Shown: piece after piece, positions 2,168-19,977 of the stretch
How the letters are laid out: each line of letters starts with the position of its first letter
Position numbering within the stretch: position 1 is the first letter of the stretch
From: Spiractinospora alimapuensis
GTDB taxonomy: Bacteria; Actinomycetota; Actinomycetes; Streptosporangiales; Streptosporangiaceae
Length of the DNA stretch: 64,000 bases
Assembly: GCF_018437505.1 (NCBI RefSeq)
Contig: NZ_CP072467.1
Span: forward strand, 1,240,001 to 1,304,000
Reading direction: 5' to 3'
Translations under genes and position numbers: made by a program
Notes under the pieces: model-generated
Database searches by the model: none
What the model was told of the DNA's origin: nothing
The model's input: the letters and a program-made list of their open reading frames with translations, nothing else

Positions 2168-3805
2168 ATGCCTCATCTCCACCCCACCAGCCATGTCGAC
2201 ACCTTCACCCGCGACAACCTCCCCCCTGACCCCCAGTGGCCCGAGCTACTCTTCGACCATCCCGACCTGCGGTATCCCGACCAGATGAACTGCGTCGAGG
2301 AGCTCCTCGACGGCACCATCGAACGGCACGGCGCCGACCGGCCCTGTCTCCTCAGCCCGGACGGCTCCTGGACCTACGGTGAGCTCGCCGAGCGGGTGAA
2401 CCGGATCGCGCACGTCCTGGTCGACGAGTTGGGGGTGCGGCCGGGCAATCGGGTCCTCCTGCGTGGTCCGAACTCCCCGTGGTTGGCGGCGTGCTGGTTG
2501 GCGGTGCTGCGGGTGGGCGCGGTCGTCGTCACGGTGGTCCCGGTGCTGCGTTCCGGGGAGCTGGTGACGATCCTGCGCGCGGCCGAGGTCTCCCACGCGA
2601 TCTGTGAGGAACGTTTCCGCGCCGACCTGGACGAGGCCATCGACGAGATCGCCCAGGATCCCTCCGGCCGCTCGGTCTCCGTCCTGCCCTACGGTGGCGA
2701 CTCGCCCTACGACCTCTCCCGCCGCGCCGAACGCCACGACACCGTCTTTCCGGCGGTCCGCGTCTCGGCGGACGACGCCTGCATGATCGCCTACACCTCT
2801 GGGACCACCGGTGTCCCGAAAGGGTGTGTGCACTTCCACCGCGACGTGCTCGCGGTCGCCGACACCTTCTCCCAGCACGTCCTGCGCCCCCAGCCCAGCG
2901 ACGTGTTCGCGGGCAGCCCGCCGTTCGCGTTCACGTTCGGGCTGGGTGGGCTGTTGATCTTCCCGATGCGGGCCGGCGCGTCGACCCTGCTGCTGGAGAA
3001 GGCCGGCCCCAAAGAGCTTTTGCGGGGCGTCCACGAGCGCGGCGTCAGCGTGCTCTTCACCGCGCCGACCGCCTACCGGGCGATGCTCGCGGACCTCGCC
3101 GACCACGACCTCGCGTCCCTGCGCCGATGCGTCTCCGCCGGGGAGCACCTACCGGCGGCGACGTGGGAGGCGTGGCGGGAGGCCACGGGGATCCGTATCA
3201 TCGACGGCATCGGCGCGACCGAGATGCTGCACATCTTCATCTCGGCGGCCGACGACGACATCCGGCCCGGAGCGACGGGACGTCCGGTTCCCGGATTCGT
3301 GGCCGCCGTCCTGGACGCCGACGGCAACCCCGTACCCGACGGAGAACCCGGTCTGCTCGCGGTCCGGGGCCCGGTCGGCTGCCGCTACCTCGCCGACCCG
3401 CGCCAGGAGCGCTACGTCCGCCACGGCTGGAACTACACCGGCGACACCTATGTCCGCGACTCCGACGGCTACCTGTGGTACCAGTCGCGCAGCGACGACA
3501 TGATCATCTCCGCTGGCTACAACATCGCGCCGGCCGAGGTGGAGGAGGCCCTGCTGACCGCTCCCGAGGTGGCGGAGACGGCGGTGGTGGGCGTGCCCGA
3601 CGAGCGGCGCGGCGCCGTGGTGGCGGCCTTCGTCGTCCCGGCCGCGGGCACCGACGCCGGGCCCGACCTCGCCGAGAAGCTGAGGGACCACGTCAAGGCG
3701 CGCATCACGCCCTACAAGGCGCCGCGCGTCGTGGAGTTCGTGTCGGAGCTGCCCCGCACCGTCACGGGCAAGCTCCAGCGGTTCAAACTCCGGAACACCG
3801 AGTAG
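2168..3805 (+). CDS. Aryl-CoA ligase (2-aminobenzoate/benzoate-CoA ligase type)
   Basis: A 545-residue member of the ANL (AMP-forming) superfamily that activates a carboxylate to its CoA thioester through an acyl-adenylate. The ATP-binding loop YTSGTTGVPKG begins at residue 209. GATEMLHIF, the YTGDTYVRDSDGYLWYQSR hinge region, GYNIAPAEVEEAL and the C-terminal PRTVTGKLQRFKLR with the catalytic lysine all follow in order. GAGGAGG stands 7 bases before the ATG and supports the start. The GATEMLHIF variant and the downstream monooxygenase/reductase favour an aromatic acid such as 2-aminobenzoate. Salicylate or benzoate cannot be excluded from sequence alone. Confidence 0.87.
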   Translation: MPHLHPTSHVDTFTRDNLPPDPQWPELLFDHPDLRYPDQMNCVEELLDGTIERHGADRPCLLSPDGSWTYGELAERVNRIAHVLVDELGVRPGNRVLLRGPNSPWLAACWLAVLRVGAVVVTVVPVLRSGELVTILRAAEVSHAICEERFRADLDEAIDEIAQDPSGRSVSVLPYGGDSPYDLSRRAERHDTVFPAVRVSADDACMIAYTSGTTGVPKGCVHFHRDVLAVADTFSQHVLRPQPSDVFAGSPPFAFTFGLGGLLIFPMRAGASTLLLEKAGPKELLRGVHERGVSVLFTAPTAYRAMLADLADHDLASLRRCVSAGEHLPAATWEAWREATGIRIIDGIGATEMLHIFISAADDDIRPGATGRPVPGFVAAVLDADGNPVPDGEPGLLAVRGPVGCRYLADPRQERYVRHGWNYTGDTYVRDSDGYLWYQSRSDDMIISAGYNIAPAEVEEALLTAPEVAETAVVGVPDERRGAVVAAFVVPAAGTDAGPDLAEKLRDHVKARITPYKAPRVVEFVSELPRTVTGKLQRFKLRNTE

Positions 3806-3861
3806 GGCCTCGGCATCCCGCACTCCACGCACACCGAACGACTGAAGGGCAGTGTGAGTCC

Positions 3862-16944: not shown

Positions 16945-16962
16945 TCTTGTAATGTGGTGGTC

Positions 16963-17484
16963 ATGAGCCACGACGATCGGCCGGCGCCCGGTGAATCTTC
17001 CCTCGACCGACGCATGGCCGCCTTGGAGCGGCGGGTCGAGGCGTTGGAAGGTCGCGCGTCCACCACCGCTGCCGAGCACGACGAGCCGCTCTGGGTTCTC
17101 GACGGCGTGCGGGCCCGCGCTGAGGCCCCGGGAGCGGTCGTGTTGGCGGGCGCGGTCACGGTGCCGGACGGGCGGGCCGCCCACTACCAGGTGAACGGAT
17201 CGACGTCGGAGCTCCTCGGCTCCGACTTCGCCGACCGGGTCGAGGCCCTGTCGGCGCTGGCTCATCCGGTCCGGCTGCGGATCCTGCAGCGGCTGCTCAC
17301 CGACGCGTCCACCGTGCAGGATCTGGCCGACAACGGGGACTTCGGGACCAGCGGGCAGATCTATCACCACCTGCGTCAGCTCGTTTCCGCGGGGTGGCTG
17401 CAGGCACAGGGGCGTGGCCGCTACGAGGTACCGGTGGCCCGCGTCGTGCCGCTGTTGACGGTCTTCTTGGCGGTGGACGGATGA
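16963..17484 (+). CDS. ArsR-type winged-helix transcriptional regulator
   Basis: A 173-residue protein. Residues 1-30 include a short coiled coil (RRMAALERRVEALEGR). The C-terminal half holds an ArsR winged helix: VEALSALAHPVRLRILQRLL, then FGTSGQIYHHLRQLVSAGWL as recognition helix and wing entry. No cysteine metal site is present, so a metal signal is unlikely. Its TGA overlaps the ATG of the next gene as ATGA (17481-17484), coupling it to a membrane-anchored M23 peptidase. Alternative GTG codons at 16954 and 16957 would add only three residues. Confidence 0.83.
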   Translation: MSHDDRPAPGESSLDRRMAALERRVEALEGRASTTAAEHDEPLWVLDGVRARAEAPGAVVLAGAVTVPDGRAAHYQVNGSTSELLGSDFADRVEALSALAHPVRLRILQRLLTDASTVQDLADNGDFGTSGQIYHHLRQLVSAGWLQAQGRGRYEVPVARVVPLLTVFLAVDG

Positions 17485-18341
17485 GGCGCCAGATCGCGCG
17501 GTTCCGGCCGTTGTGGTTCGCGGCGATCCCCGTACTGATCGCCCTCAACGAGACCATGTTGGCCGTGGGTGGGACCGCCGCTCCGGGGTGGCTCGTGTTC
17601 GGCCTGGCGGCCGTGCTGGTTGTCCTCATCTTCGTCCGGCCTCCCGTGGTTCACCGCGAGCCCGTGGAGGTCGCGGCCCCTGTCAACGGTCGGTGGGTCA
17701 GCCTGAACAGCCCCGGCTCGAAGGTGCCGAGCCACGGGACGCGCGCCTACGGCCAGAGCCACGCCGTGGACATCCTCCACCCATCCGACGCCGACTCCCC
17801 GCCGATGGCGCGCCGGGGCCTGCTGCCCAACCGTCCGGAGGACTACTCCTGTTTCGGGGAGCCCGTGCTCGCGGTCGCCCCCGGGGTGGTGACCCGCGCC
17901 ACCGACTGGCAACGTGACCACCGGGCCCGCAACACCTGGCCCGCGGCGATCTTCATGCTGGTCCTCGAGGGGCTCCTGCGATCCTTCGGCGGTTTCCCCC
18001 TCATCGCCGGCAACCACGTGGTCATCACGCACGACGACGGCACGGCGAGCGTCTACGCGCACCTCAAACACCGGTCCGTTCTGGTCACACCCGGACAGCG
18101 CGTCACCGAGCGCCAGCACATCGCCCACGTGGGCAACACGGGAAACTCCTCGGAACCCCACCTCCACGTCCAGCTCGCCGACCGGCCCGAACCGGGGGCC
18201 AGCGTCGGACTGCCGATGCTCTGGCGCGGCCTGGAGGTCGAGGCCGCGCCGGACCCGCGACTCGCGCCGTACACCAAACCGCCCGCCGCGACGGCGATCG
18301 CCGGGTTTCCCGCGAACGCCCGGGTCTTTCGCTGCACGTGA
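17481..18341 (+). CDS. Membrane-anchored M23 family metallopeptidase
   Basis: A 286-residue protein with two membrane segments (about 9-27 and 33-51) and an extracytoplasmic M23/LytM domain. The zinc site is intact: the histidine and aspartate of SHAVDILHP and the HLHVQL motif near residue 230. M23 enzymes cut peptide bridges in peptidoglycan. A hydrophobic insert (AAIFMLVLEGLL) between the two halves of the site is unusual. It is translationally coupled to the preceding ArsR-type regulator, which suggests a cell-wall or envelope signal controls it; that is inference. Confidence 0.85.
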   Translation: MRRQIARFRPLWFAAIPVLIALNETMLAVGGTAAPGWLVFGLAAVLVVLIFVRPPVVHREPVEVAAPVNGRWVSLNSPGSKVPSHGTRAYGQSHAVDILHPSDADSPPMARRGLLPNRPEDYSCFGEPVLAVAPGVVTRATDWQRDHRARNTWPAAIFMLVLEGLLRSFGGFPLIAGNHVVITHDDGTASVYAHLKHRSVLVTPGQRVTERQHIAHVGNTGNSSEPHLHVQLADRPEPGASVGLPMLWRGLEVEAAPDPRLAPYTKPPAATAIAGFPANARVFRCT

Positions 18342-18403: not shown

Positions 18404-18470
18404 TAGAATGGCCGGCATGTCTGGTGCTTCCGCCGCGGCCGCCGCCGCTGTGACGAGGACGCTCCGCTAG
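18404..18470 (+). CDS. Leader peptide (17 residues) of an attenuator, with its own -10 box
   Basis: An ATG at 18417 opens the short frame MSGASAAAAAAVTRTLR, ending with TAG at 18468-18470. TAGAAT at 18404-18409, included in this span, is seven bases before the ATG, so the transcript should begin at the start codon itself. The last codons lie in the 5' arm of a hairpin (18459-18481), and an intrinsic terminator follows about 60 bases later, before an MFS exporter gene. This is the layout of ribosome-controlled attenuation. No homologue search was possible; the peptide is too short for proof by itself. Confidence 0.6.
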
Positions 18471-18512
18471 CGGCGGAGCGTTCCTAGGTCTTCTCTCTTC
18501 GTACGTTCCGCC
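18457..18512 (+). promoter_or_regulatory. Mutually exclusive leader RNA stems
   Basis: ACGCTCCGC (18459-18467, last codons of the leader peptide) pairs perfectly with GCGGAGCGT (18473-18481). The same 3' arm, 18472-18481, can instead pair with 18503-18512 (ACGTTCCGCC) over ten base pairs including one G-U. A ribosome stalled near the end of the leader peptide would block the first pairing and favour the second. A further pairing, CGTTCCG (18504-18510) with CGGAACG (18523-18529), competes with this and borders the terminator. Confidence 0.5.
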
Positions 18513-18527
18513 GCTCGAGGGTCGGAA

Positions 18528-18565
18528 CGGTGCCACACGTCCGTGTGGCACCGTGTTCTTTCTTG
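18528..18565 (+). terminator. Intrinsic terminator before the MFS exporter gene
   Basis: CGGTGCCACACG (18528-18539) and CGTGTGGCACCG (18542-18553) form a nearly loopless perfect stem, really 11 pairs around GTCC, followed by the T-rich TGTTCTTTCTT. This is the best intrinsic terminator in the window, and it stands only 30 bases before the exporter start codon. It would stop most transcripts unless relieved. Confidence 0.8.
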
Positions 18566-18582
18566 AGCAACGGAGCTTCTCT

Positions 18583-19977
18583 GTGTTTCCACGCACCTCT
18601 ACGGTCATGCGGTCTGACCGCACGTCGGCAGCACGTTCCTGGACGGTACTGAGCTGTCTGGCCGTGTTGCAGTTCTTCATCGCGGTCGACGTGACCGTGG
18701 TGAATATCGCCCTTCCGTCCATCGGCGCCGAGTTGGGCGCCGGTCCCCGCGAGTTGACCTGGGTGGTCGTCGCCTACACCATCGCCGGCGGCGGGCTGCT
18801 CATGCTCGGCGGCCGACTGGGCGACGTCTTCGGGCGACGCCGGGTACTCCTCGTCGGCACTGCCGTGTTCGGTGGGGCGTCGCTGTTGGCCGGTGTCGCC
18901 AACTCGTTCGCCGTGCTGGTGGTGACTCGACTGCTCCAGGGGGTCGGTGAGGCGCTGGCGCTTCCCGCGGCGATGGCCACCATCGTGCTGCTGTTTCCCG
19001 AAGGGCCCCGCCGGTCGCGCGCGTTGAGCGTGTGGGCGGCGATCGCCAGCTGCGGCCTGGTGCTTGGCTTCGTCCTGTCGGGGGTCATCACCGAGTTCCT
19101 GGGGTGGCGCTGGATCTTCCTCATTGCCGTCCCGTTCGTGGTGTTCGTCCTCGTGACCACGGTGATCCTCATCCCCGCCGATCGGTCTCGGGAACGGGCC
19201 CCGCTCGACGTGCTCGGCTCCCTCCTGCTGACCTGCGCCCCACTGCTGTTCGCGTTCGGTGTGGTGGAGGCTGGGGGCGATGGAGGAACGCCGTCCTGGG
19301 TGCCGGCAGTCGCTCTCGTGGGTGCGCTGGTAGCGGGCTTGTTGTTCTTCGCGGTCGAACGCCGGGCCACCAACCCGTTGATTCCGCTCGCGTTCTTCCG
19401 GAACCGTTCCCGCGTGCTCGCCAACCTCGCGACGGCGCTGCTGAGTGCGACACTGTCCACGTCGTTCCTGCTGTTCACCTTCCAGTTGCAGGACCGGCTC
19501 GGACTGTCCCCGCTCCAGGCCGGACTCATGCTGCTCCCCCTGGCGGTGAGTCTGGTGCTCGCCGTGACGGTGGTGCCCCGGCTCCTTGGCTCGTGGGGAG
19601 CACGCGGGTGCGCCCTGGTCGGGATCGGGTTCGCCGCCCTGGGCATGGTGGTGATCGGGGCCGCCGCACACCTGGGCGCGCCCGCGCCGATGCTGATTCC
19701 GGCGATGGTTCTGATCGCGGCGGGGATGGGCTTCGGCATCGTCGGCCTGCAGTACGCCGCGGTCACGGGCGTCACCGACGAGGACGCTGGGGTCGCCTCG
19801 GGAGTGCAGCGCGCCGCCGACCAGCTCGGGGGCGCGACGGGCGTCACCGTCTACGTCGGCGTCGGTTTCACACCGAGCGTTCTCGGCTCGTCGCCGTACC
19901 TGCTGAGCTGTGGCCTGGCACTGGTGGGCCTGCTCGGCGCCGCAGCCGTCGCGGGCCGCATCCGGATCGGGCGGTAG
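18583..19977 (+). CDS. DHA2-family MFS drug exporter
   Basis: A 464-residue protein with 14 predicted membrane segments, the EmrB/QacA layout. Motif D1 reads AVDVTVVNIALPSIG in helix 1, motif A GGRLGDVFGRRR follows helix 2, and motif C-like glycines occur in helix 5. The GTG at 18583 is chosen because GGAG lies seven bases upstream; an ATG at 18607 has no such site, and earlier codons fall inside the terminator. The leader region points to induction by a translation-affecting signal, so a ribosome-targeting compound is a sensible but untested substrate. Confidence 0.87.
   Translation: MFPRTSTVMRSDRTSAARSWTVLSCLAVLQFFIAVDVTVVNIALPSIGAELGAGPRELTWVVVAYTIAGGGLLMLGGRLGDVFGRRRVLLVGTAVFGGASLLAGVANSFAVLVVTRLLQGVGEALALPAAMATIVLLFPEGPRRSRALSVWAAIASCGLVLGFVLSGVITEFLGWRWIFLIAVPFVVFVLVTTVILIPADRSRERAPLDVLGSLLLTCAPLLFAFGVVEAGGDGGTPSWVPAVALVGALVAGLLFFAVERRATNPLIPLAFFRNRSRVLANLATALLSATLSTSFLLFTFQLQDRLGLSPLQAGLMLLPLAVSLVLAVTVVPRLLGSWGARGCALVGIGFAALGMVVIGAAAHLGAPAPMLIPAMVLIAAGMGFGIVGLQYAAVTGVTDEDAGVASGVQRAADQLGGATGVTVYVGVGFTPSVLGSSPYLLSCGLALVGLLGAAAVAGRIRIGR

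Follow-up and report, generated by a model that had tools for sequence, protein, structure and literature searches.

Translational attenuators of the ErmC and cat type consist of a short leader open reading frame (ORF) before a resistance gene, with mutually exclusive helices in the transcript. Arrest of the ribosome by a drug changes the pairing and releases the Shine-Dalgarno (SD) sequence of the gene. The leader described here, found in a 64,000-nucleotide stretch of the Spiractinospora alimapuensis genome (the window), resembles them in having a leader ORF that supplies one arm of exclusive helices, and in its proposed drug arrest and SD release. It differs in that it is apparently leaderless, whereas ErmC and cat leaders are led by an SD, and in its A-V-T motif, its two apparent SD locks, its MFS exporter target, and its actinobacterial origin.

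Other antibiotic-responsive upstream ORFs (uORFs) are comparable in part. At the toiL uORF of E. coli topAI, as outlined in the cited portion of PMC12121999, antibiotic arrest likewise alters the RNA around the target ribosome-binding site. The likeness is one of description; target and phylum are different, and repression by toiL also brings about Rho-dependent termination inside topAI. The uORF attenuators of lmrC and of ARE5 ABCF genes in Streptomyces likewise respond to antibiotics and precede actinobacterial resistance genes, but the relevant sections of the two papers (PMC8546547, PMC12421871) describe a premature terminator, and the are5sc and tiaA leaders given there (MLV and MVGDDDISG) are unlike the leader peptide here. 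The leuL and trpL1 leaders of S. lividans, in the part of PMC8079986 that concerns them, are likewise leaderless leader peptides in high-GC actinobacteria, but their targets are biosynthetic, tRNA-ligase, and uptake genes, and their codons are enriched for one amino acid.

Ribosome-mediated attenuation is already known, as are leaderless leaders of amino-acid operons. New, as far as searched, are the peptide with A-V-T, the placement of a leaderless start ahead of a drug exporter, and the chain of helices. A description of the leader or its peptide was not found in the literature searched, which comprised open-licence papers, so that a subscription paper could exist. Rfam gave no match at the gathering score in the whole window or in three relatives, and at a loose threshold only MIR1437 (E 0.59).

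The leader and its exporter gene

The window covers bases 1240001–1304000 of a 5.86 Mb genome and has a G+C content of ~70%. An MFS exporter gene with a GTG start lies on its forward strand at 18583–19977, and all window features described below are on the same strand. The exporter has a Pfam MFS_1 match, and among NCBIfam models Lmr(A) (NF000031) scores best, at 454.5 bits; since this is below the curated cut-off of 850, the exporter is termed LmrA-like. Its SD is CGGAG at 18571–18575, in which GGAG is invariant in a 91-row alignment of leaders that was itself trimmed with help of the GGAG motif. Upstream lie an ArsR-like regulator gene (HTH_20, 16954–17484) and, directly before the leader, an M23 peptidase gene (17394–18341).

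The original prediction, made from the window alone, placed a TAGAAT seven bases ahead of an ATG and, from this ATG, a 17-codon frame ending V-T-R-T-L-R-stop. Both were found as described. The −10 element occupies 18404–18409, the ATG follows after seven bases at 18417, and the frame, which encodes MSGASAAAAAAVTRTLR, runs over 18417–18470 with a TAG stop at 18468–18470. In all 91 distinct leaders, TAnnnT occurs exactly 7 nt before the ATG and at no other spacing within 3–15. The start was chosen without regard to the −10 element in 37 of these leaders and by a search that used it in the other 54, in which the same conserved peptide begins at the chosen start. An SD-like GGAG, GAGG, or AGGA in range upstream of the leader start is seen in only 5/91. 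The fixed −10 spacing and the scarcity of an upstream SD among the 91 leaders support the proposal that the leader mRNA is leaderless, as judged from sequence.

Conservation of the leader and its link to the exporter

The exporter protein, used as query against GTDB genomes, yielded 121 relatives, the best 80 of which were analysed. The leader is present in 80/80 of these best 80 of 121, 32 of them being found through a peptide pattern and the other 48 through a covariance model derived from an alignment of 36 leaders, each of the 48 at E 1.5e-16 or better. This conservation raises the leader above chance. The leader frame is genuine, and the expectation that it would recur in aligned leaders of orthologous exporter genes was borne out.

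To remove the bias toward exporters, a DNA pattern of the leader only was searched in whole genomes. It matched in 10/394 genomes of the class and 26/345 of the order (the sets partly overlap), while a backwards control pattern matched in 4/394 and was not seen in the 345. The matches correspond to 32 distinct loci, window included, of which 31 encode the peptide and 30 are followed immediately by the exporter; in two of the latter (L148 and L155), the exporter match is split in two pieces. Locus L150 has a complete leader with only a C-terminal exporter remnant behind it, which marks it as a decaying copy, and L141 has neither exporter nor remnant downstream.

In the window genome, none of seven exporter paralogues carries the leader (0/7), and the covariance model run over the whole genome has a single match, the window locus. 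A covariance-model search of the phylum matched the window genome and one other of 396, a result that is no frequency estimate because only 8 candidates were scored per genome; the pattern searches replaced it. Over their first 170 bases, the leaders of two genomes of the window's family are the same as those in Nocardiopsis and Streptomonospora records (L016 = L044, L019 = L107), which places the host among the actinobacteria of this family.

Residues selected in the leader peptide

Counted from the stop, the residues A(−7), V(−6), and T(−5), which are codons A11-V12-T13 at 18447–18455 of the window, are invariant in 91/91 leaders, in which they use 4, 3, and 3 synonymous codons. The peptide pattern demanded T and one of V/I/L/A, and the DNA pattern demanded A-V-T. 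Since the 48 leaders missed by the peptide pattern were recovered by the covariance model, the patterns did not create the A-V-T invariance in the best 80 of 121. AVT is also present in the two leaders that the alignment does not include (L122 and L123). Further upstream, A(−8) is kept in 90/91 and A(−11) in 89/91. The stop is kept in 90/91, as TAG in 89 and TAA in 1. It is lost in L017, where the peptide is extended to 28 residues and the best exporter match spans residues 10–150 only.

The residues after T(−5) vary, with R, E, K, or W at −4, followed by T/A/S/M and then S/L/P/F/T/R. The last leader codon is always CGC in the 91 leaders and lies within a pairing arm, segment A. Selection on amino acids stops at T(−5), where segment A starts. 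The C-terminal arginine codons, which the original prediction had stressed, do not belong to the conserved part of the peptide.

The composition of the peptide bears on one alternative, in which an Ala-rich and often Cys-rich peptide gauges charged tRNA, like actinobacterial leucine and tryptophan leaders. The leader does encode a poly-Ala or Ala/Cys stretch, and leaderless amino-acid leaders exist in S. lividans, according to the cited part of PMC8079986. However, 24/91 leaders have A, P, or F instead of Cys at −9, and an exporter lies downstream in 80/80 of the best 80 of 121 relatives, which were selected by exporter, and in 30/32 pattern loci. A starvation sensor of this kind is very unlikely.

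The leader could also be a regulatory RNA bound by a protein or metabolite, in which the frame is incidental. A 190-nt stretch folds far better than its shuffles (z −4.62; 0/200), and the alignment contains long invariant stretches, as such an RNA might. The codons of A-V-T nevertheless change only synonymously, the stop is kept in all but one leader even where it has become TAA, and the ATG and −10 spacing are fixed, all of which make an incidental frame the least probable of the explanations weighed here.

Alternative helices and their covariation

The last leader codons had been placed in a hairpin whose 3′ arm can pair instead with a downstream segment, and this arrangement was recovered. 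Segment A (18457–18467), the end of codon 14 and codons 15–17, can pair with 18473–18483 of segment B (18469–18483), and B can otherwise pair with segment C (18501–18515). C can also pair with segment D in most relatives or with the SD region (C:F). Segments D (18527–18539) and E (18542–18554) are the 5′ and 3′ arms of the hairpin first taken for a terminator, which was traced by terminator scan and covariation. Segment F2 (18562–18568) adjoins the SD and is assigned by complementarity to E, the lock helices being without independent covariation.

Covariation was counted in the alignment and compared with shuffles. In A:B, 96.3% of cells pair and 53 cells are changed on both sides, compared to 19.3 ± 11.5 in shuffles, of which 0/500 reach 53. 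In D:E, 96.9% pair, with 20 cells changed on both sides (0/500). In B:C, 91.0% pair, and both sides have changed in 6 pairs (1/500) and in 23 cells (31/500). E:F2 pairs in 88.7% and has 25 both-side cells (0/500), with an unremarkable number of changed pairs (239/500). C:D pairs in 94.9% and is nearly invariant, with 7 both-side cells (5/500).

Because the sequences are related, the count was repeated on a quickly built exporter tree that covers all but one of the 91 rows; in this count some pairs enter under two kinds of change. Independent compensating changes outnumber opposing ones in A:B (5.5 vs 0.3), B:C (5.4 vs 1.6), and D:E (5.4 vs 0), compared to 3.4 vs 2.3 in E:F2 and 0.1 vs 0 in C:D. 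No single position is significant in the tree test of these 90 rows. Single-pair tests are too weak to decide, so sums were compared with slide controls: the totals are 19.9 vs 4.2, and the six controls give 4.1–7.7 vs 1.6–8.1, with the +3 control also leaning to compensation (6.4 vs 1.6). From the shuffle and tree counts, A:B, B:C, and D:E are supported, and E:F2 and C:D are not supported beyond complementarity. Some single leaders stand out: where L124 and L113 have VTWSSR, B has changed to match, and VTKMLR in L049 goes together with fitting changes in both B and C. Judged by covariation, A:B and B:C are mutually exclusive in the family, and the leader codons evidently form one arm.

The window copy can form 11/11 pairs of A:B and 14/15 of B:C, and B:C dominates in the folding calculation. 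C:D is pairable in at least 8/9 positions in 80/91 leaders and in only 4/9 in the window, which is an outlier and where C:F, which buries the SD, keeps 10/10 pairs. All 11 leaders with weak C:D, window included, have strong C:F (9 or 10 of 10), compared to 24/80 of those with good C:D, a count uncorrected for kinship. C:D with E:F2 and C:F may thus be two exchangeable locks on the exporter ribosome-binding site. A further helix, between segment A and the exporter SD (A:F), seemed convincing in 37 leaders and was rejected as a conserved element because a C-A mismatch breaks it in 48/91.

Folding with a ribosome on the leader

The 91 leaders were folded codon by codon with the RNA up to the leading edge of the ribosome hidden, using three footprints; the values are equilibrium values for related sequences. 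With 15 nt covered from the P site onward, the mean probability of B:C is 0.63, 0.81, and 0.79 with the P site at −7, −6, and −5, respectively. It is 0.40 at −4 and 0.32 or less at other positions. A footprint of 12 nt places the peak at −6 to −4, and one of 17 nt at −7 to −5. As a family average, the codons computed to cause the flip match the invariant A-V-T within about one codon, and this match is the main argument for a putative arrest at A-V-T.

The predicted effect on the SD is smaller. Mean SD exposure is 0.19–0.23 at the peak, 0.09–0.13 at other positions, and 0.06 without a ribosome, and it is above 0.25 in 26 to 39 of the 91 leaders at peak positions. Exposure at −5 exceeds that at −10 in 72/91 and that at −1 in 73/91. 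The mean probability of D:E is 0.63–0.66 at −6 and −5 compared to 0.46–0.47 at −9 and −10. When B:C with D:E is enforced and compared with A:B with C:D, the SD is freer in only 48/91.

The flip is not seen in the window copy because B:C predominates there even before the ribosome has moved downstream (0.66 at −10 and 0.70 at −8, with A:B at 0.02 and 0.01). At the six ribosome positions given, the window SD stays paired (exposure 0.00–0.03), and in the flipped state it is predicted to be held in a small local hairpin. D:E forms with a probability of about 1 at the same six positions, so the calculation shows no switching of D:E by the leader.

Translational or transcription attenuation

The best reading of the locus, to which we give about an even chance, is a leaderless arrest peptide whose antibiotic-induced arrest would free the exporter ribosome-binding site, i.e., translational attenuation. 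Transcription would start at or next to the A of the ATG, and the ribosome would load on the bare 5′ end. In the uninduced state, A:B pairing would leave C free to help lock the exporter ribosome-binding site, in the window by direct pairing with the SD (C:F) capped by D:E, and in most relatives by C:D together with E:F2. An antibiotic of the peptidyl-transferase or exit-tunnel type would arrest the ribosome while A-V-T occupies the catalytic centre. The arrested ribosome would cover A, B:C would pair, D:E would stay or form, and the released SD would allow the exporter to be translated. In this scheme the arrest, the drug, and the induction are proposed steps, SD release on arrest is computed as a family average, and the SD lock is the weakest part.

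The original prediction had instead seen a strong intrinsic terminator before the exporter. The D:E hairpin (18527–18554) does have 12 pairs and a T-rich tail, and ends 28 nt before the GTG at 18583. However, the U-tract is not conserved in the family: at least 5 U in 8 follow D:E in 30/91 leaders, and no U run above 2 is found in 80/91. The terminator scan by itself is no better than chance, with 2 found in 3 kb and 1.4 ± 1.1 expected. Arrest at A-V-T would favour D:E and so, if D:E were the terminator, would lower expression, which is the wrong sign for an inducible exporter. The hairpin is better seen as part of the induced fold; its reading as a terminator is set back as a conserved switch and kept as the main rival. 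Of the layout of antibiotic-responsive ribosome attenuation, the leaderless start, conserved frame, and ribosome-responsive pairing are supported by relatives, and the terminator-based form has become less likely.

That rival, ribosome-mediated transcription attenuation, would use D:E as a terminator, intrinsic or helped by a factor, and C:D as the antiterminator. Normal translation would cover A, which would allow B:C and D:E to form and halt RNA polymerase; a drug acting at initiation or at the early codons would leave A:B able to pair, C:D would form, and the polymerase would read through. The D:E hairpin is well supported by covariation and on the tree, its tail in the window is the most U-rich of the 91 (6 U in 8), and the near-complete C:D of the 80 leaders noted above would suit an antiterminator. 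In Streptomyces, attenuation by a uORF and a terminator operates at lmrC and are5sc, according to the cited parts of PMC8546547 and PMC12421871. In addition, clindamycin raises the lmrA transcript by RT-PCR in S. lincolnensis, as given in the cited part of PMC8546547, an RNA-level effect in a homologue that is likened by gene and not by leader.

On the other hand, C:D is broken in the window and lacks independent covariation in the family, the window D:E forms wherever the ribosome is placed among the six positions, and the U-tract varies as described. Transcription attenuation would also leave the invariant A-V-T without a role, since arrest there would lower expression, and F2, which lies past the proposed terminator, keeps its complementarity to E or C. 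This alternative is less likely than translational attenuation. It is nonetheless a serious rival, and the output step is the weakest link of translational attenuation, given the paired SD of the window copy, the enforced-fold result in only about half of the leaders, and the RNA-level induction of lmrA.

Copies on proteobacterial plasmids

Exporters at 60–80% identity occur in 16 records of a plasmid collection, nine of which were examined for the leader. The covariance model finds it in 7/9 plasmid stretches. In an eighth record, Salmonella pD90-4, the leader (L130, 927–1037) extends past the last base of the circular record, and the exporter is at the record start (L121). A megablast of the L119 and L122 copies against an E. 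coli genome collection gave no match.

Several plasmid copies are truncated or divergent. In E. coli pN56338-1 (L119, ~3800–3860) and Salmonella p34514-2 (L126, ~2800–2860), the leader is without its start: its first recognizable bases lie within the peptide frame, not far behind an ISVsa3 transposase gene, and are followed by the remaining 3′ leader sequence and the exporter. A 7.6 kb E. coli IncQ1 plasmid (L120, 2940–2990) retains only the last leader bases before the SD, with an exporter copy behind. Plasmids of Enterobacter (L122), Klebsiella (L127), and Brevundimonas (L123) carry a divergent leader peptide, MISLDSESAAAAAASAVTRTLR, in which A-V-T is kept. In the Enterobacter and Klebsiella records, IS26 transposase genes flank the exporter match, which in the latter is unannotated and in two pieces.

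Implications for the exporter family

Taken jointly, and tentatively, at somewhat below even odds, the data may describe a new family of nascent-chain arrest peptides with an A-V-T core, read from a bare 5′ end. Since selection on the peptide ends where selection on RNA pairing begins, one short ORF would encode both a drug-dependent arrest signal and an arm of a chain of switching helices. Across Actinomycetota, the switch would have kept to a single exporter family, and it would have moved with the exporter onto proteobacterial plasmids.

As a compact, conserved, and apparently undescribed switch, the leader is well suited to asking how leaderless initiation of the 70S type serves as the input of an antibiotic-arrest switch. 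A-V-T, being invariant, is a candidate arrest motif, and the arresting drug would point to the substrate of the whole exporter family, including the copies on plasmids of Enterobacteriaceae.
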